Assembly (NCBI GenBank): GCA_950295325.1
Contig: OX485804.1
Location: 69,666,033-69,730,032, forward strand
Reading direction: 5' to 3'
DNA: 64,000 nt
Origin: Polytrichum commune
Lineage: Eukaryota; Streptophyta; Polytrichopsida; Polytrichales; Polytrichaceae
The position numbers and the translations under genes are program-made. The notes beneath the pieces were generated by a model that saw nothing but the letters and a program-made list of their open reading frames with translations, ran no database searches and had not been told where the DNA came from. This document shows positions 18,251 to 56,245 of this stretch, piece after piece (positions within the stretch are counted from its first letter, which is position 1; the number at the start of each line of letters is the position of its first letter).

Positions 18251-19634
18251 TACTCATGAATCAAATAATACGAAGATACTATCATTCTCATAATAATATT
18301 ACACATGCACATAATAGTGTGTAAAATATATAATTATGGTAGTGTTGACAAAATATTATGAAAACAATATATTACTTATGATTTATCAATAAAAATATGT
18401 ATCATATGAATATATTGTTGTATTATAATACATATATTACAACATTATAGCTTATATTGTATACAACACACTTTATTAAAGTGAGCATAGAATTCTACAT
18501 CCTCACATACACACACACATATATATGTTTCTGGTTAAATTAAGCATGCCACTATCCTAACTTCCCTCCCCATCTAATTTCTCCTTCGAGTGAGGCAACG
18601 GTCCCGTTTTGTTTCAGAGCTTAGACATGAAACAAACCGATATTTCAGTAGATTTGGATCAAGTCCCAGTCCATACTTCCAACATGCTAAATTTTATCAT
18701 ACAATCCTACAAGTAGGATTTGTTTGCTAAGATCTTCTAGTCGAATATGCAAAGTGGATTATGATAATACGTAGTAGTTGTTTTAATCGTATTTTCAAAT
18801 TTCAACACCTATTTATATAGATTTAACATCAAAAATTAGATATTTGATTTCCCTTCACATTTTAATAGCACTAAATTTAAGAAATGATCACTAGGGATTC
18901 ACATATCTCCCACAAAATTTAGGTATATTAGAAGTGTATTGACGGATCCACCCATAATATTGAAGCAACCAAAATGTCTAGATTTTGAGAATATGTCAAG
19001 ATTTACTTAAATGCTCATAATTATGCTATGATTGAGGAGAACCAGCAGTTAGTTAGAGATGAACCGGTTGAGTTTGCGAAATAACCGGTTGAAGTTCAAT
19101 ACTTTGAGAGAATTACTAATCACTTTAGAGGAGTTTATGGAATATACCTCAAATTAATATAGAAAAACCGGAGGATGTCGACATGTGACCGATTGGACTT
19201 GCAAACACTAGGATCTCAACCAATTATGCCCAAAAATTTCTCCGATCACTGTAATTAATTATGTCATCTTCAGTATAAAAATCCAGATCCACATAATCAA
19301 CACATTTACAATAAGGATATTATTGAAAATGGTTCCCTACAAAGAGTGAGTTGTAAAGTGGTTCTTCACCATGTTACCGTATGTTTCAAAGAAAAGTTCT
19401 GAAGAGTATTGTATCTATGACTTTCTTTGTGCTCAACATGCATCAATTTTCATATATTTTCTTTATAAAAATATAAATTGGATATGTTCTGAAGTAAAAT
19501 TAAAAAAAAATAAAGATGTCCCACATGGACATTTTTTTACATGATTTTCAATGTCATTAAGCAACCCAAATTCAATGTCTCCCTCCATTAGGTTCAAATA
19601 TCATTTGGATGCAATCCTCCTCACAAAGGCCAAT
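18251..19634. other. AT-rich intergenic DNA with one dispersed repeat
   Basis: About 19040-19275 is a diverged copy of 32310-32530. They share ACCGGTTGAAGTTCAA versus ACCAGTTGAAGTTCAA, GGAGTTTATGGAATATACCT and ACTAGGATCTCAA. Nothing coding. Confidence 0.5.
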
Positions 19635-29628: not shown

Positions 29629-30570
29629 GGATCCCAAGTCCTAAGCCCCAAATCACTTGAGGTCGATCTGTGCAATCTCAGCCGTTGAGAGCATGGAAGT
29701 TGGGACTTACCACTTCACACGGGTCCCAAGTCCTAAGCCCCAAGTCACTTGAGGTCGATATGTGCAATCTCAACTGTTGAGAGCATGGAAGTTGGGACTT
29801 ACCACTTCACACGGGTCCCAAGTCCTGAGCCCCAAGTCACTTGAGGTCGATCTGTGCAATCTCAGCCGTTGAGAGCATGGAAGTTGGGACTTACCACTTC
29901 ACACGGGTCCCAAGTCCTAAGCCCCAAGTCACTTGAGGTCGATATGTGCAATCTCAACTGTTGAGAGCATGGAAGTTGGGACTTACCACTTCACACGGGT
30001 CCCAAGTCCTAAGCCCCTAGTCACTTGAGGTCGATCTGTGCAATCTTAGCTGTTGAGAGCATGGAAGTTGGGACTTACCGCTTCACACGGGTCCCAAGTC
30101 CTAAGCCCCAAGTCACTTGAGGTCGATCTATGTAATCTCAGCCGTTGAGAGCATGGAAGTTGGGACTTACCGCTTCACACGGGTCCCAAGTCCTCAGCCC
30201 CAAGTCATTTGAGGTCGATTTGTGCAATCTCAGCCGTTGAGAGCATGGAAGTTGGGACTTACCACTTCACACGGGTCCCAAATCCTGAGCCCCAAGTCAT
30301 TTGAGGTCGATTTGTGCAATCTCAGCCGTTGAGAGCATGGAAGTTGGGACTTACCGCTTCACACGGGTCCCAAGTCCTGAGCCCCAAGTCACTTGATGTC
30401 GATATGTGCAATCTCAACCGTTGAGAGCATGGAAGTTGGGACTTACCACTTCACTCAGGTCCCAAGTCCTGAGTCCCAAGTCACTTGAGGTCGATCTGTG
30501 CAATCTCAGCCATTGAGAGCATGGAAGCTGGGACTTACCACTTCACTCGAGTCCCAAGTCTTAAGTCCCA
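29629..30570. repeat. 92-bp tandem array, ten full units plus a partial one
   Basis: Units begin at 29629, 29721, 29813, 29905, 29997, 30089, 30181, 30273, 30365, 30457 and 30549, exactly 92 bp apart with no indels. Each reads GGGTCCCAAGTCCTRAGCCC, then CACTTGAGGTCGAT, GTGCAATCTCARC, GAGAGCATGGAAGTTGGGAC and TTACCRCTTCACAC. Units 1-2 and 3-4 alternate the variants GATCTG/CAGCCG and GATATG/CAACTG, indicating duplication of a 184-bp dimer. Confidence 0.95.
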
Positions 30571-30814
30571 AGTATGACATGGATGCCTACATGGTGACAC
30601 TTTTTGGAGGTGAGATTTCGGACCGGTGTTGAGAGTTGGGTCGAGCAAAAAGTAGGACCCAACTCGCAACACAAGTCCCGTGTATCTTTTTGTCAAGATT
30701 TGCGTTTAATAAATAAAAACCCATATTTGAATGGTTTCTTGAGGTTTGAAAGTTGGGACTTTGTCTTCATGTTCGGACTTGCTAAAGTAGACGAGCCTAT
30801 AGTTGTTACTTCCA

Positions 30815-30999: not shown

Positions 31000-33294
31000 G
31001 GTTTATCAACAAAAAAAAGTTGACACTATATGTGTGTAGGTCTCATTCAATTCGCATTTCTCATCCATCGTTGTCATATGGTGAAAGTCCTCAATGACTA
31101 CCTTGTTCATTCTTGTCAGGAATCATGGGCTCCGATGAGTTTTATTCTCCAAACCGTGGATAAGTTATTGGGCTTTTGTCTTCGTTTGTTTGATGCAATC
31201 CTTGAGCTACATGCTATGGATGAGAAAATATTCACTGACTTTCTCATCGGAAGTGAGTGAAATTTATATGCAAAAGGCCTATATAAATCATGATTTATAT
31301 TTTGTACATTCAACCACGTAGTTTGTTAAATGACCACAAAGATGTGTCACACGGTCACATGGCCTATTCAATTTCGACTTTTCACTGCGCACATGAAGAG
31401 GACAAGGTAACAACCAAGGTTAGAGTTGATAAACTTGGCAAACTAAATAGATTAACAACCTAGCCAACGCTTTTGCATGTATCCTTGTGGTCATTTTTAC
31501 TTGTGTGTGGTCAATTGAACAATCCCTTAACGTAAAAACTTTGTATAATTACATGAGTCCATTTTCTAGCATGCCAATAGTTTGTGTACAATTTTTCTCT
31601 ATATAAATTGCTCGTATACAGAAGTCTAACTTCATAGTGACCCATGCACATCATTGAAGTCCCTAACGAAGAGCCTACCTTCCAACTTCCAAATGGTTGC
31701 TTTCTAACCTTCAATGATCTATCTATCTATCTTAAAATGATAAAAGTAAAATCGACTAAATTACCCATTACTTTGATTGCACATCCTTCACATGATTTTG
31801 GAAGCTCAAACCCCAAGCATAGAACACCACGAATCCACCATGTATGTAGTCTCCACAATCAAAGAGTTTCAAATACGTCATAACTTTGAAAACGTTCATA
31901 TCGGAAGTGGCCCCTTCAGTCCCATAATGCAAACGCCGATTTTATAAATGCCAATTCACTACAATTATTTCCATCCTCCACGTTTCTTTACATACACTGC
32001 TTTGCAGTGCACCTTTGAAGCATTCAAGAACCCCCTCCCTGAAGCGGAGGATAACGTCTATGGCTTCCAACATCCATGTGGTCATTAAGTTTCTTTTTTC
32101 TTTCTCCCCCCAAGAGCTTCTCATTAGTTCGAATGCATCATAGTAAAGTGGATCAAAAAAGTGCTCCAGTATTCTATATTCATAGTTCTTCTGGTCAAAC
32201 ATCTGAAAGTAGTAGTCAAATGTTATTTAATTTAAGTATTTACTCATGGTATTCAAATGTAGATTATGAAAATAAGATCTTCAAAAACTATGAACAGGGA
32301 GAACTGATTGTTAGTTACAGATGCATCGGTTTAATTTGAGAATCAACCAGTTGAAGTTCAAGACTTGAAGGAAAATTACCAATTATTTCAAAGGAGTTTA
32401 TTGAATATACCTCAAACTAATAAAGAAAAACCAAAAGATTGTACCATGTGACTGGTTGGCCTTGAAAAGACTAGGATCTCAATTGATTATGCTAAAACAA
32501 TTCTCCAGACATTGTTGAATACGTATCATTAAAAGTAATGCTCAAAGCAAATGGCTAGATTTGGTTTTGGACATAAAGTTCATGGCCTTAACTTTAAAAA
32601 AATATCCATATCTCTCGAATTAAATATAGTCTTAAGGTCATCATCAATAATTTTGGCAGAAAAGCATCACTTCAATGTTATTTTATACTATTTTGAACAA
32701 AAATTTGAGAATTACTTGTTCAACATCAACACTTGCACACCACTTGCACCATCCTTTGGAATATGTAGACTTCTTGGACATTGTTTTTGTCAACACAAAT
32801 TACTTGACTTTGTAGATCAATATGTTTATAGAATGTTCATGATCATTGTTTTTAATAAAACTCAAAGTTCGCATATAGTTTTGAATCACTTTCACTTAAA
32901 CTTGTGCAAGGATCAAGAGTTGTCACTTTACCGTGCTTGCACCCATTCAAATGTGGATTTTTGCAACGATTGGACAAGAAAGTTACTAGCCAACCCAAAT
33001 TGCCCTTGGAGGATGTGGGTTGCAACATTAAAAAGTAAGAATATAAACGCCATGATACAACTTTTGTGGTAAAAGCATCTAATTTTTAACGCAACAAAAA
33101 AGAAATGCTATGCGTTTATTGTGTTGAGGTGAATGAAAGTTATGTTATTTATTGTGTTTTGCAGCCTACGTGGTAGTTTGCCTTGGCTAGAGCATGGATT
33201 TAGATGCACATTTTCGCCACCCAATTGGTTGCTTAGCCTCCCAAGTTGTTGTCTACAATTGAAGCTACCCAATTTTGCGTCACATGCCCAATCC
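31000..33294. other. Intergenic DNA, no gene called
   Basis: 32310-32530 is the second copy of the dispersed repeat also seen at 19040-19275. An uninterrupted plus-strand frame of 173 aa (32551-33072) follows it directly. It is Cys-, His- and Phe-rich, matches nothing I know and has no visible exon partners, so I treat it as an unassigned frame. Confidence 0.45.
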
Positions 33295-33298
33295 TTCA

Positions 33299-33687
33299 CG
33301 GTTGGTTCACACGGGGTCCCAAGTCCTAAGTCCCAATTCACTTGAGGTCAATCCTTGCAATCTTAGCCGTTGAGAGCATGGAAGTTGGGACTTCCCACTT
33401 CACACGTGGTCCTAAGTCAAAAGTCCCAAATATGACATAGGTGCCTACAGGGCAACATTTTTTGGAGGTGAGGCTTGGGACTTGTGTTGAGAGTTGGGTT
33501 GAGCGAAAAACTAGACTCAATTCTTAATACAAGTTCGACGAATTCTTTTGCACAAACTAATCAAGATTTGGTTTTAATAGACATAAATTATATTTATTGG
33601 TTTCTTGAGGTTCAAAAGTTGGGACCTTGCCTCCATGTTGGGACTTGTTGACATGAATAGCACTTGGAACCATATGTGAACCAACCT
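33299..33687. mobile_element. Harbinger-type MITE, single-unit relative of the 92-bp array
   Basis: The inverted ends GGTTGGTTCACA (33300-33311 and 33675-33686) are flanked by TCA/TTCAC direct repeats (33295-33299 and 33687-33691). The interior has one copy of the 92-bp unit (GGGTCCCAAGTCCTAAGTCC through GAAGTTGGGACTT) and the start of a second. It then has the same ATGACATAGGTGCCTACA, TTTTTTGGAGGTGAGG and GAGAGTTGGGT sequence seen at 30560-30785. It is therefore the unexpanded form of the 29.6 kb element. Confidence 0.72.
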
Positions 33688-34094: not shown

Positions 34095-35050
34095 GTTTGG
34101 GGTTCAAGGTCCTCTACCAAATGCGGCAAACCACACAAATGATGGAATATAGATAGAGAGAGAGAGACTCTAAAATACCAACTTCAATTATCCCATCGTG
34201 TTTGGAATTAGTCTAGTCAAATCAAAAAAATCCCAATTATCATTTTGTTTTATTGAAATTTCAAAATAAAACACCACTAGATCGCCCAATTGAATGGTAA
34301 ATCTACGTATTAATCATTACCTATATGTTTGTCTAGCCAAAATATAAAATGGCTCTCGTTTGGGCTTTCTCAAATGCCAACTAAGCATGCAAGGTGATGG
34401 GGTAGGTCCACACCTTGTGACAATACCAACAACACCAAGTTTCCCAACCTAGACCACACTTGCCTAAGTCCATGTTCCATGCACATCTTCAAATCTCCAT
34501 CATCCTCATCATCCTCCGCTTACAATGTTTGCCACGTGACATCACGACACTTAGTGCCACTTCTCGAAGACACACATTTGGCATTTTTGGCTTTCAAAGG
34601 TTGAAATTGGCCACAACTTTGTTACCGGAGCATATTTCATATGTCACATACATTTACTTGATCCTAGTATAGGTGTATTTGAGCCCTCCTCGTGAATCAA
34701 TTCCACCTCTTTGTGAAACAAAGCATGTCCATAAATCAAATTTTCAATAAAAATATTATTGAAAACATACGAATCAAAAAGAAACCAAATTGTATCAAAA
34801 CCTTGAACAATGAGAAAAAGAAACAAGGGTGGAGTTTTTCTTGCACATGTTCATGTGGGGGCTAGGTGTGGAGACCTTAGTAAAAACAAGTTCACAAACA
34901 CATACAAACTTCCTTGCATGGTTCACAAACCCAATTCGTCTGAGTCTGGCAATGCGCTCACTTATGTCTCAAGACCATTTGTGATGGTGCATGTAGAGTG
35001 GACCTGGTACTTGGTTTGAAAATGGACTACGAGGTCCGGACATGTGCTTG
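34095..35050. other. Intergenic DNA, no gene seen
   Basis: A short GA microsatellite lies near 34155. No supported frame. The left end of the piggyBac relic should lie in or near this interval, but I could not recognise its terminal repeat. Confidence 0.45.
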
Positions 35051-36330
35051 TTAATGCCTTTGCCATTCAATTTGGAATTGAAGGTGTGACAAGGTGTCCT
35101 TAGGCGTCCCTTGTTCTTTAATGATGTCTTTGTGGAGCAACCACATATTGACAATTGATGTATCCAAATCAAAGTAGGGAAACCCATGCCAAAACTTGTG
35201 TGACCTGACCCAACAAGAATATGTACCCTTAAGTTGGTATGCCACGTCAACACCTTGCATGAAGGTGGTGGATTGGAGGTGGATTGGAGTAGTGTATATG
35301 TTTTGTTGAACACCTCCACTCCTAGGCACATGGATTGCTTATACTTCTTTAAGCAAAGGATGTTGATGTGTGGAAATTAGCAACAATGGCTTTTTGTCCA
35401 TGAAAACAACCAAGCACATGCATCTAGAATCATGCATCCCCCAATCTAGCGCACCTTGTGGGTTCTTCCCAAATTTCTTAGTGTTTGTTATGGACTTAGG
35501 CATGCCTATCCTATTTGCTTAAACAATGTTTGTCTCATAGATACTCACTCACCTCATATTCTTTAGAAGCTCTATGCTTGGGGGGAATTCCCATTGCTAC
35601 TATGTGTCCTTTGTGCTCAAGGCCTTTCACCAAATTCATAACAACTATTTTACATTGTTTCATCTCCTTTTTTGGACCCCACTAAACCTGCTTTGTGCCA
35701 TTTACAATGCATACACATCAAACTTGTACACGTACTTTCTATTTGCATCATATAAAAATTATATCTACAAACCCACACCATTGTATATCATTGACCAAAA
35801 CCATGTTATAAAAACTACTCTCATCATGTTTGGGATATTATCAAAATAATTGAAATAAGACAAATGGTGTTGCACCTTCAATTCCCATTTCACCAATTTG
35901 TTGGGCAAGTATTGCCTTATGGGGCAATAATTGCCCTTGTAAATGCACCATCATTTCGTCCATTGCCAATATATTTCCCAAATTCCAATTCCATATAGCT
36001 TTAGCAAAAAAATCTAGAAACCTTTGACAATTATACAACTTGTCATATGATGGTGAATTGTGGTCTCTAGTAACATTAGTACCGTCAACAACATGCAAAC
36101 ATTCTTACATATCTAAAAACCTATCTCTAGTCATGACATTGGAAATGACTGGACACAAGAGTGGTTCACTCTTTGCCCAATAGAGCTTGACACTTGGGTT
36201 TTTTTCACTTCCATGTACAAATGAGCAGCTAATAACACTTTAAGATCTTGTACATCAAGAACAAACCAATCATCACTGCCACAACAATAGCCCTCTCTAA
36301 AATACTCCTTTGCATAGCTTTTAGTTTTTT
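35051..36330 (-). pseudogene. Degenerate piggyBac-family transposase (DDE_Tnp_1_7)
   Basis: Minus-strand pieces in correct order match the piggyBac transposase family. YWAKSEPLLCPVIS and MTRDRF lie near 36120-36190. KLYNCQRFLDFF and the first catalytic block AMDEMMVHLQG follow near 35950-36040 (family consensus S-x-DE-x-M-x-x-F-K-G), then NKLVKWELKV near 35880. DANRKYVYKFDVY lies near 35720 and VVMNLVKGLEHKGHIVAM near 35590-35640. FMQGVDVAYQLKGTYSCW and SIVNMWLLHKDI lie near 35150-35260 (consensus MGGVDxxDQLxxYYS). At least two frameshifts and several stops break it. The DNFFTS segment after GHxVxM is missing and GVDxxD has become GVDVAY, so it is inactive. No TTAA-flanked terminal repeats were identified. 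Confidence 0.82.
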
Positions 36331-38310
36331 GAGCTATGGCACATAAAGTTTCCTAAACCCAAACAAACTAAACAGTTGGTGGAAGGTGGAAGCCTTTTCC
36401 ACTCTTCCACATGTTTGACTATGAGTTCGGTGAACTAGAAAGGCATAGAGTCAAACGTGCACTCATGTTGGGACCCATGTCTCATCTTTATATTGGTGTT
36501 CCACATATATTGGCATTGTCTAGCTTAGAGTAGACAAGCTAGTATAATTACTTCCTCAAGGTATGGCCTCTTCTCTTGTGGAATAGATTATGAAGAAAGA
36601 ATCCCATTTGATTGACATATATAGTATGAATCCAATCATGCCATATAAGAATGAGATTAAGGTGACGAAATGTCAATTTTGTGATCAATTTTTAAAAAGT
36701 GGATGTGGGGTTTTCTTTTCTTTTCTTTTCTTTCCCAATGGTTATATAGGTGCACACAAGGTGGTCATCACATTATTCGATATTGAAGAGTTTTTTGGTT
36801 TCCTTGTCACCAAATACTACCTACATGTAGCACAATACATCTAAATATATTCAGTTCACCAAAGTCGTGGATATGTCCACATTTAATGCAAATATTTCAA
36901 CCTATCTCATATTCACATATTAACATGTCTAGCACTTGCGTGTTTATATTGGAACCACTTGAATGTCGTTAATAGGTGTTTAGAAATTTGGGCATATATG
37001 GTGCAACTCTCCGGGACCACTAAACATGGTCACATGGCTAAAGATTGCTATGGTTAGTGATGAGACGGTGTTTAGCATTGGTGTTATTTTGGCTAAGGCA
37101 AACTTGTGATACTTGGATACTTTTTCTCTCTACACCACATCTCGTAGAATACGAAACATGCAATTAGTGTGAGATGATTAGCAAATCCAAATTGTGCCCG
37201 TACCCGTATCCCTCATGATTCTTGGAGGTCATATGAATATCTTACTCATTAAGAAAGTGAGGATTCTTGTGCTCATTAAGTGGTCATATAAGCCCCCCCC
37301 CCCCCCCTTGATCATGCTGACTATTGAACTTAAAATAGTTAGCATGTTTTGAGCATGGAGTCCAGTCCCTCTTAAACCCATGTATTTTTGGTGTCCGTCT
37401 TAGATCCACACTTAACCACATACCACTCAAATGTAGGTGTCCATATTCTTGCTACCTTGGAATAAGGTACATCTATGTTCCAACCAACGAGACGTCGTAT
37501 TGAATCATTTTGCACCCAAAAGTATACTTATCATTATATTCATTAATTAGAGACTTTGGAAAGTCTCAAAAGAAATGCAAATGGTTTAATATCTTTCCCA
37601 ATTTCTTATTACGATGACATGTATTTGTGTCAAATCATTTAGTGTTGCCCACGCGAATCACTTTATGAAGTCACATCGAGTATATTTTGTGTTGTTCTTG
37701 TTCTTTATTTGAAAACCATGTCCTTAGATAATTTCAAAATCATGAAAAAAGTCTCCAATTACCGAATATAATGACAAGTGTTCGAATCAGTGTCCAAGGA
37801 GATTTTTGGGCATAATCAGTGAAGATCCTATGTTTCCAAGTCCAACCAAACATATGTTACGATCTTTTGGTTTCTCTTGATCAATATAAGGTATATTCCA
37901 TAGATTCCTCTCAAAAGATCCGTAATTTTCGTGAAGTATTTGAACCTCAACCAGTTCATTTGTAACTAGCGATCGGTTCTCCCCATTCATTGGTTTGAAT
38001 AGGACATGCCTGGACTCTAGCATATAATATGGACTCTTTTACCGTTGCCAAGTCAAAGTTCCAGCACGGAAGCAAATTTTGTACTGTTGATGGGGCTTTT
38101 ACATGGACATGGTACCCAAGTTTTGGTGTTGGGTATCATGCATACATGTGGATGAACATAAAGAATCAAACAATCTCACCATCGCCTCCCGGTAAGGAAA
38201 CTCATCCATATGGATGAAAACTCACCATCATGCAAAAATACTCATCCATGTGGATGAAAATTCGCCATCATGGGGGGGAACAACTCGTCCATAAGGATGA
38301 AAGGGTGTTA
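36331..38310. other. Intergenic DNA, no gene seen
   Basis: A C run lies at about 37291-37308. Short direct repeats of ACTCATCCATRTGGATGAAA and CACCATCATG lie at about 38160-38300. The frames at 36590-36844 (plus) and 37787-38023 (minus) are unassigned. Confidence 0.45.
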
Positions 38311-54900: not shown

Positions 54901-56245
54901 GAGTACTAACAGTCAGTAGTTGCTGGGAATCACAGCAAGCAAGATGTCGGCCCACGTCAGATGCCAAAGCTAAGGAATTGAATGGAAGTAACATTTTTGG
55001 GTACCTTAACATTGATTGCTCTGACTCTTCACCACGAATTATGAAGGAGCATCAAGAATGCCGCTACCCTCCACATGACCTGCAACGAAATGTTTGTAAC
55101 GTTTCTAGCTTATAAATAAGTTATTCTTTAATATCAATACTCCTGAGTGTGGAAAAACCCTTGAAAGAGCTGATACAGCTGTGATATGTCTCAAAATGGA
55201 TACCACTTATCCTAGGAGAGAGGAATCAATGGTGTGCACTTGTACCAATCTTGGACTGGTCCTAGCACTTTCTAGGCCCTTATTTGTAGTTTCTATCTGA
55301 CAAGATATTAAAGTTAAAGAACCGAATCAAAGTGCAGTCCCTTGGCTGTGACCAATGGTGGTTAAGAGATTGTTGTTGATTTGCGAAAAAACAATCTTTG
55401 GATCTATTTCGAGTTGGGAAGTTTACTTTTTCTTAATTCAAAATCGCACAAGGAATCATGGACTCCACAAAATAATAACAATTGTGCTTATATTCTCTCA
55501 GCCTGCTGGTGGAGTTAGTCAAATTTCATTTGGTGGGGAGGAATGTGCTTCACCAAAGAAGCCAGTCACGATTCCTGAGGTGGCAAAGCAGAAGGAGCTT
55601 AGTGGTACAGTGGAGACTACTGATGACGCTACAGCAAGACGGTGCTTCTCAAATGCAAAAGCTAAGGAATTGGTTGGCAGCAACATCTTTGGGCCTGCTC
55701 CTGTAGAACCAAAGAAACATAATAGATCTTTGGAGATGAGGGAAGAGATAAAGGCTGCAGGGTCCGAAGCTGCACAACCCCGAAGTGTCCACACTTCAGT
55801 GAAAGTCTCCAATGTAAGTTGGAAAACTGGGCTTCTGCACGAGGATTTCAATAGAACAGGTTGAGAGTTCTAGTCTGATTTAACCAGTGTAACTGTTCAT
55901 CAGATATCTACAGATTAGACTACATTGATCACTGAATTATGATTCTTTTGAATGGTTCAGCCTGCAGGAGGGCGGAGTCAGATATCATTTAGCTCAAAAG
56001 AGGAGGCTGATGCTGTAACCCACAGCAAAAAGCATGAGATGAAGAGTGCAGAACTTTCAGGACACGATATATTCAGTGAAGGGAACAACTATGCAAACAA
56101 GAACCAGCAACATCATCTTAGCCAGGCGAAGCTCAAGGAGATGTCTGGCAGTGACATCTTCTCAGATGACAAACCTAGAGCCCGAGATATCATTGGTGGT
56201 ATCAGAAAACCACCTGGTGGAGGAAGCAGCATCTCCCTTAACTAG
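51932..56245 (+). CDS. DUF4057 family protein (HN1-like repeats), five exons
   Basis: Exons 51932-52156, 53478-53551, 54227-54350, 55502-55813 and 55961-56245 join in phase through GT-AG introns to give 339 aa. The N-terminus has the family signature STIDLFSWSE, then GRPTIRMHQ. The body is repeats that open with PAGG(V/R)SxI(T/S)FG and close with a (H/V)GSGIF or (L/M)xGS(N/D)IF motif, e.g. AKAKELVGSNIF and AKLKEMSGSDIF. EECASPKKPVTIPEVAKQKE and the end GGIRKPPGGGSSISLN are near-diagnostic for the plant DUF4057 family. Length agrees with family members I recall (about 300-350 aa). The repeats resemble animal HN1/Jupiter proteins, which are microtubule-associated, but the plant function is not established. 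The ATG is the first in frame before the conserved N-terminus. Confidence 0.93.
52170..52866. repeat. Three tandem ~230-bp units in DUF4057 intron 1
   Basis: Units start near 52172, 52380 and 52620. Each has a GAGAGAGTGAGAG-type stretch, GGTTCGAATCA, CATTGCTATC, TAGTAAGTGTGA, TGATGTCATT, GAGTGACCAGGCGTC and AGAGTCCGYCAACGGTG. The first unit starts within 20 bp of the exon 1 donor. Confidence 0.85.
54693..54788 (+). pseudogene. Exon 4-like relic 1 in DUF4057 intron 3
   Basis: The conceptual translation SNAKHKELNGSNVFP aligns with SNAKAKELVGSNIFG encoded by exon 4. Upstream similarity is weaker (QPRGRTQ versus ATARRCF). An in-frame stop lies just upstream and no in-phase acceptor is visible, so it is not part of the normal transcript. 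Confidence 0.7.
54920..55002 (+). pseudogene. Exon 4-like relic 2 in DUF4057 intron 3
   Basis: QARCRPTSDAKAKELNGSNI followed by FG aligns without gaps to the ATARRCFSNAKAKELVGSNI-FG part of exon 4. The DNA match is strong around GCCAAAGCTAAGGAATTG. Weak similarity may continue to about 55110. No PAGG start or usable splice acceptor was seen. Confidence 0.75.

Follow-up and report, generated by a model that had tools for sequence, protein, structure and literature searches.

Does the DNA around positions 35051-36330 of the window (the whole stretch of 64,000 nucleotides that was analysed) hold the remains of a piggyBac transposon, and what does such a relic indicate about piggyBac elements in the genome that carries it? 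The initial annotation pointed to seven peptide blocks arranged as in a piggyBac transposase. Each of them was recovered exactly once on the minus strand, in transposase order:

36117-36134, minus strand, peptide block MTRDRF
35934-35966, minus strand, peptide block AMDEMMVHLQG
35873-35902, minus strand, peptide block NKLVKWELKV
35711-35749, minus strand, peptide block DANRKYVYKFDVY
35592-35624, minus strand, peptide block GLEHKGHIVAM
35210-35257, minus strand, peptide block QGVDVAYQLKGTYSCW
35126-35158, minus strand, peptide block SIVNMWLLHKD

The assignment of the blocks to the piggyBac domain DDE_Tnp_1_7 was borne out by alignment, profile search and tblastn. The reference for a frameshift-aware alignment was an intact transposase frame of 564 aa encoded in the same genome; the relic corresponds to residues 45-543 of this reference, and 205 of the 488 residues aligned are identical. 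The alignment score was 722, whereas the scores of 60 shuffled sequences averaged 41 and did not exceed 70. In addition, tblastn analysis of the window with an intact 564-aa frame as the query found a single match (36361-35066, 151 bits, E 6e-41); the best of 200 dinucleotide shuffles of the region 34901-36600 reached 26.9 bits. According to the genome-wide scan with the Pfam profile (PF13843), which reads through stops, positions 35910-36236 match the domain above the cut-off (42.6 bits, E 7.4e-9 for one genome) with one internal stop. When the eight stop-to-stop frames of the window copy were searched separately, one of them (36105-36239) matched the profile slightly below the threshold (21.0 bits, cut-off 22.4) and the seven others showed no match to DDE_Tnp_1_7.

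The relic includes the region delimited initially, 35051-36330, and both of its ends lie further out. The following features were located:

34916..36492, minus strand, decayed piggyBac (DDE_Tnp_1_7) transposase coding region (frameshift-aware alignment and tblastn)
36105..36239, minus strand, single open frame matching Pfam DDE_Tnp_1_7, profile positions 43-84 (21.0 bits, E 2.4e-4)
35958..35960, minus strand, conserved aspartate 1, kept (..MDEMM..) (frameshift-aware alignment)
35765..35875, minus strand, insert of 111 nt, GT...AG on the element strand (alignment and paralog comparison)
35590..35592, minus strand, site of conserved aspartate 2, lost, reads Gly adjoining a frameshift (frameshift-aware alignment)
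35246..35248, minus strand, conserved aspartate 3, kept (GVD) (frameshift-aware alignment)
35237..35239, minus strand, conserved aspartate 4, lost, reads Tyr (frameshift-aware alignment)
34916..34963 (approximate limits), minus strand, remnant of the C-terminal Cys-rich region with one readable CxxC pair (alignment with the Cys-rich tail of an intact copy)

The four aspartates of the relic and its relatives are presumably the catalytic residues known from piggyBac biochemistry. In the six intact relatives that were aligned, aspartates 1-3 are invariant, and the fourth position is Asp in five. Cys-rich tails are present in the translated intact frames of loci L001-L007. Since the window copy contains 13 frameshifts and 10 in-frame stops according to the frameshift-aware alignment, and has lost two of the conserved aspartates, it is dead. 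Its homology to piggyBac transposases, its decay, its placement in a subfamily, and the existence of relatives that have intact frames and both ends are direct observations. We therefore read this stretch as a dead, old copy of a cut-and-paste transposon of the piggyBac superfamily, belonging to subfamily W, in a moss-like nuclear genome, with a probability of about 0.96 (W, A, B, C, and D are group labels of this analysis). Taken alone, the relic is ordinary genomic debris.

In total, 407.8 Mb of the assembly were scanned, including seven large contigs, C1-C7, with the window located on C2 (70.3 Mb). At least 118 stretches matching DDE_Tnp_1_7 were found, and matches are present on all seven of these contigs. 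The five best of them are near-identical open frames of 564 aa, designated family A. In a comparison with transposases of solved structure, an intact relative showed similarity to piggyBat (E 5e-24) and to the piggyBac of T. ni (E 5.5e-23).

A DNA search with the window copy returned 41 rows, namely, one self-match, 11 rows (eight loci) on the transposase part, and 29 rows on a short repeat only. The longest DNA matches between the window copy and its paralogs are 66-70% identical. Two of the eight loci, L028 (7 frameshifts, 11 stops) and L029 (8 frameshifts, 6 stops), are broken as well, the Pfam scan reveals stops at another two (C2:28.22 and C1:25.92 Mb), and the matches at the four remaining loci are confined to pieces of 61-279 nt. 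An intact member of subfamily W was not found in the genome.

A protein tree was constructed from 36 rows comprising 34 moss copies, the T. ni piggyBac (PDB 6x67), and the Myotis piggyBat (PDB 9c0f); the two PDB entries are taken by us to come from Trichoplusia ni and Myotis, respectively. For the moss rows, mainly the highest-scoring stretches among the 118 were taken, with four relics added; L053, which spans a frameshift, was omitted. The window copy, L028, and L029 formed a separate branch with a support of 100/99. Another relic, L030, joined this branch at 93/87, which is below the star threshold of the tool, and family A joined the group of W and L030 at 97/88. All 34 moss copies were split from the two animal transposases with a support of 100/99. 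The sampled copies make up at least five deep groups, W, A, B, C, and D, and judging by sequence comparison the window copy is a member of the old subfamily W.

The insert of 111 nt in the window copy has a counterpart in the broken paralog L028, where an insert of 152 nt with GT-AG borders occupies the same codon boundary. The family-A frame of L019 is continuous across this site, and the aligned part of L029 begins at it. We take the insert to be a putative intron of the subfamily. As suggested by family membership, the living transposase would have had a DDE/DDD RNase-H-like core, a C-terminal Cys-rich region, and one short intron, and would have moved its element by a cut-and-paste mechanism, excising it at TTAA and reinserting it at new TTAA sites.

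Full-length elements of family A have a length of 6 kb, TTAA target duplications, and CCCCTAA inverted repeats. Each of the four copies that were extended has TTAA-CCCCTAACTGCCCGAG at one end and the complement of TTAA-CCCCTAAATGCCCGAG at the other, and their flanks differ. Allowing up to two mismatches, 224 + 240 matches to this end pattern (464 in all) were detected in the genome, compared with 0 + 1 for the reversed control. Across 5982 bp, L019 and L020 share 99.85% identity; L022 matches L019 at 98% in two pieces (3.5 and 2.2 kb), and L019 and L021 show 99.1% identity across 2.9 kb but just 81% across another 1.8 kb. Because one pair of copies is 99.85% identical, family A appears to have moved recently. 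The dN/dS ratio is 0.04-0.43 in family A (6 of 8 copies) and is high among close copies. The initial annotation had proposed a full-length piggyBac element in the history of this lineage and had advised a search for intact copies with TTAA-flanked terminal repeats. Such copies were found in the genome, and intact transposase frames lie inside TTAA-flanked full-length elements today, which bears this proposal out.

Six places with the end pattern of family A were picked from the matches listed and fetched (L054-L059). Three of them contain small elements of one size class:

L054, 101-933, small element with TTAA at both ends, 833-834 bp class
L055, 559-1392, small element with TTAA at both ends, 833-834 bp class
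L058, 559-1391, small element with TTAA at both ends, 833-834 bp class

These three sequences are 97-99% identical, have a left end similar to the one in family A, and look like non-autonomous passengers. L059 is possibly an element of about 0.5 kb, and a single end was seen within the fetched pieces of L056 and L057.

Family B is represented by 13 copies. Nine of them contain open frames of 888-952 aa, and the DDE match is free of stops in ten. The three family-B frames that were scanned contain DDE_Tnp_1_7 and no other Pfam domain above the cut-off; three extra frames (two in family B, one in family A) gave no Pfam match. Across the 78 pairs of copies, compared in the DDE region with our own Nei-Gojobori script, the median dN is 0.048, the median dS 0.81, and the median dN/dS 0.059 (range 0.03-0.09). 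There are no near-identical twins among the 13 copies, the smallest dS being 0.23. The long frames, the low dN/dS, and the lack of nearby ends had led us to consider family B as domesticated genes; this reading was dropped when ends were found further out.

These ends carry the 15-mer TTAACCCTTAAAAGA, which has 28 and 31 exact matches in the genome (0 and 0 for the control). It faces inward at both ends of nine family-B copies, is present at one end of another, and was found at neither end of the three others (L006, L007, and L039). The same 15-mer brackets two further loci of the PF13843 scan, and 36 of its 59 matches are not explained by these elements. The 15-mers enclose 9.0-16.7 kb and, in one further case, 33 kb, where a nested insertion may be present. 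Three family-B elements were completed:

C7:41450456-41462023, family-B element of 11568 bp
C7:20353423-20362605, family-B element of 9183 bp
C4:27162229-27172795, family-B element of 10567 bp

Besides the transposase, these three have terminal blocks of 0.5-1.2 kb in common. TTAA together with terminal repeats was found in all three, and likewise in the three copies of family C that were extended. Large elements with TTAACCCTTAAAAGA ends are located on C1, C2, C3, C4, C6, and C7. A 3.9-kb inward-facing pair at C6:37908946-37912869, inside which no PF13843 match is listed, is perhaps a non-autonomous family-B element.

The conserved ends of family B favour selection acting by way of transposition and speak against domestication, an interpretation that does not account for the absence of young twins. 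In family C (four copies, six pairs), dN/dS is 0.07-0.13, and CCCCTAA ends are present in the three extended copies. Three of the five copies of family D show values of 0.38-0.67, indicating weaker constraint. Tentatively, and at slightly less than even odds, these data can be read as showing that at least five piggyBac lineages have long lived side by side in this moss. In this reading the giant family B, whose sampled copies are mutually old yet under strong purifying selection, has been kept mobile, and the window relic is the fossil of an extinct related lineage. If true, giant piggyBac elements would have retained their mobility in a land plant for a long time.

A competing explanation of this diversity is that the moss lineages arrived by horizontal transfer, perhaps repeatedly, and do not descend from early land plants. 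At least five deep groups side by side, one of them with near-identical young copies, would fit such arrivals, and horizontal transfer of piggyBac is known in animals. On the other hand, the 34 moss copies are separated from the animal transposases with a support of 100/99 (the outside sequences being only two), and no relative was confirmed in IMG/VR, where a search of viral contigs gave 77 pattern matches and confirmed none of them as a relative. We consider transfer less likely than not. For the relic itself, a domesticated, PGBD-like host gene derived from piggyBac is extremely improbable: almost all of the transposase can still be recognised, even part of its Cys-rich tail, but there is no intact frame, the 13 frameshifts, 10 stops, and two missing aspartates of four speak against function, and L028 and L029, its nearest relatives among the sampled copies, are likewise broken.

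The placement of the relic in a plant genome, as the initial annotation had it, agrees with the surroundings of the window. Contig C8 carries chloroplast genes, and its PsaB has three equally good best matches in PDB (7ksq, 6l35, and 8htu, 1671.8 bits), followed by a match of 1634.3 bits (among the 60 listed of 84). Entries 7ksq and 8htu are presumably from the same species as 6L35. The latter is described as Physcomitrella patens in the consulted part of PMC7884438. The host is therefore most likely a moss, an assignment based mainly on this one chloroplast protein. Within the window, an open frame at 55352-55861 on the plus strand contains DUF4057 (Pfam PF13266, E 4.8e-32) and probably represents one exon of an unremarkable plant gene; we assume DUF4057 to be a plant-specific family. 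Fragments of rbcL and psaA/psaB type occur on nuclear contigs (C2:70106055-70106189, C3:14137891-14138196, C4:47707642-47707821, and C5:337267-337371) and are probably nuclear plastid DNA. Although the superfamily is best known from animals, contamination of the assembly with animal, fungal, or algal DNA has next to no probability as the source of the relic, which lies on a 70-Mb chromosome, in the same window as the DUF4057 stretch and 0.38 Mb from the chloroplast-type rbcL fragment at C2:70106055, while PF13843 matches occur on C1-C7 and, in the tree, the 34 sampled copies are all found on the same side.

The dead copy of subfamily W and its moss relatives have the catalytic core in common with T. 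ni piggyBac (6x67) and piggyBat (9c0f). The intact moss relatives are also like these two in the aspartates, the Cys-rich C-terminus, the use of TTAA, and terminal repeats starting with CCC, whereas the window copy differs from them in being dead and in having an extra intron-like insert. With 6 kb in family A and 9.2-11.6 kb in the three family-B elements measured, full-length moss elements are larger than T. ni piggyBac, with 2472 bp, and the bee elements, with 2.23-3.52 kb, as given in the part of PMC10140906 consulted. Pokey of Daphnia, also a piggyBac element, has an average length of about 5.1 kb and inserts, among other places, at a specific rDNA site (PMC3849761, in part). Lengths of 9-17 kb are thus large for the superfamily, judging from these bee and Pokey values. 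According to the same portion of PMC3849761, Pokey resembles the moss elements in having two divergent lineages with differing terminal repeats in one genome, an intron in the transposase (putative in the moss), and miniature companions that use TTAA; it differs from them in its terminal repeats and in its host, which in the present case is a plant.

The hint in the initial annotation that piggyBac is seldom discussed in land plants proved weaker than it was worded. In the passages of the sources consulted, piggyBac-like elements are stated to occur in fungi, plants, and animals (PMC8086355, PMC10140906), piggyBac is among the superfamilies present in all taxonomic groups surveyed, land plants included (PMC4438587), and it is named among the superfamilies of angiosperm MITEs (PMC10004981). 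A repeat table for the fern Ceratopteris contains a piggyBac row (PMC6890710), and that for the grass Stipa gives one piggyBac element of 75 bp (PMC8319324); these are counts in repeat tables, whereas the moss has full-length elements with both ends. An earlier view is given by a paper of 2008 on grapevine, in which, in the portion consulted, five cut-and-paste superfamilies were counted in plants by then, piggyBac being absent from them (PMC2528002). Among the matches listed in the literature search, no title concerned piggyBac native to a moss genome. In the matched text, a paper on Physcomitrella mutagenesis names piggyBac six times (PMC5505980), and the two matches in a paper on the moss Niphotrichum are the word "piggybacking".

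Since piggyBac in plants has already been published, the moss elements add to the known presence of the superfamily. What they add is a land-plant genome with diverse piggyBac, including intact frames, elements with both ends, and similar ends in the hundreds, a part of them on copies that look non-autonomous. If the near-identical copies are mobile, this genome would offer a native plant piggyBac system for study. The diverged large elements raise the question of how cut-and-paste elements can survive intact over such long periods.

As for the ends of the window copy itself, the window contains no match to the family-A end pattern at up to three mismatches. Among 361 TTAA pairs around the relic, the best had 9 of 16 matching bases, compared with 15 of 16 in family A. 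No pair of inverted repeats flanked by TTAA was detected around the window copy or around its two relatives L028 and L029. By analogy with the other families, complete elements of subfamily W would once have existed.

An inverted pair of 128 nt (32341-32468 and 37833-37960) was considered as the terminal repeats of the relic and rejected, as it belongs to a common dispersed repeat. A query with this repeat (37800-37990) gave 3506 first-look candidates in the genome, and all 40 that were scored matched. The same repeat also occurs at window positions 19083-19205 and in the piggyBac loci L003/L021, L008, and L027. A second short dispersed repeat adjoins the relic at about 36530-36700 and is the source of the 29 repeat-only rows among the 41 of the DNA search. 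Elsewhere in the window, an array of 92-bp tandem repeats occupies 30000-30643, position 30000 being the edge of the stretch searched. About 2.86 kb downstream, at 33314-33647, part of this array occurs a second time in diverged form, together with its right-hand flank.
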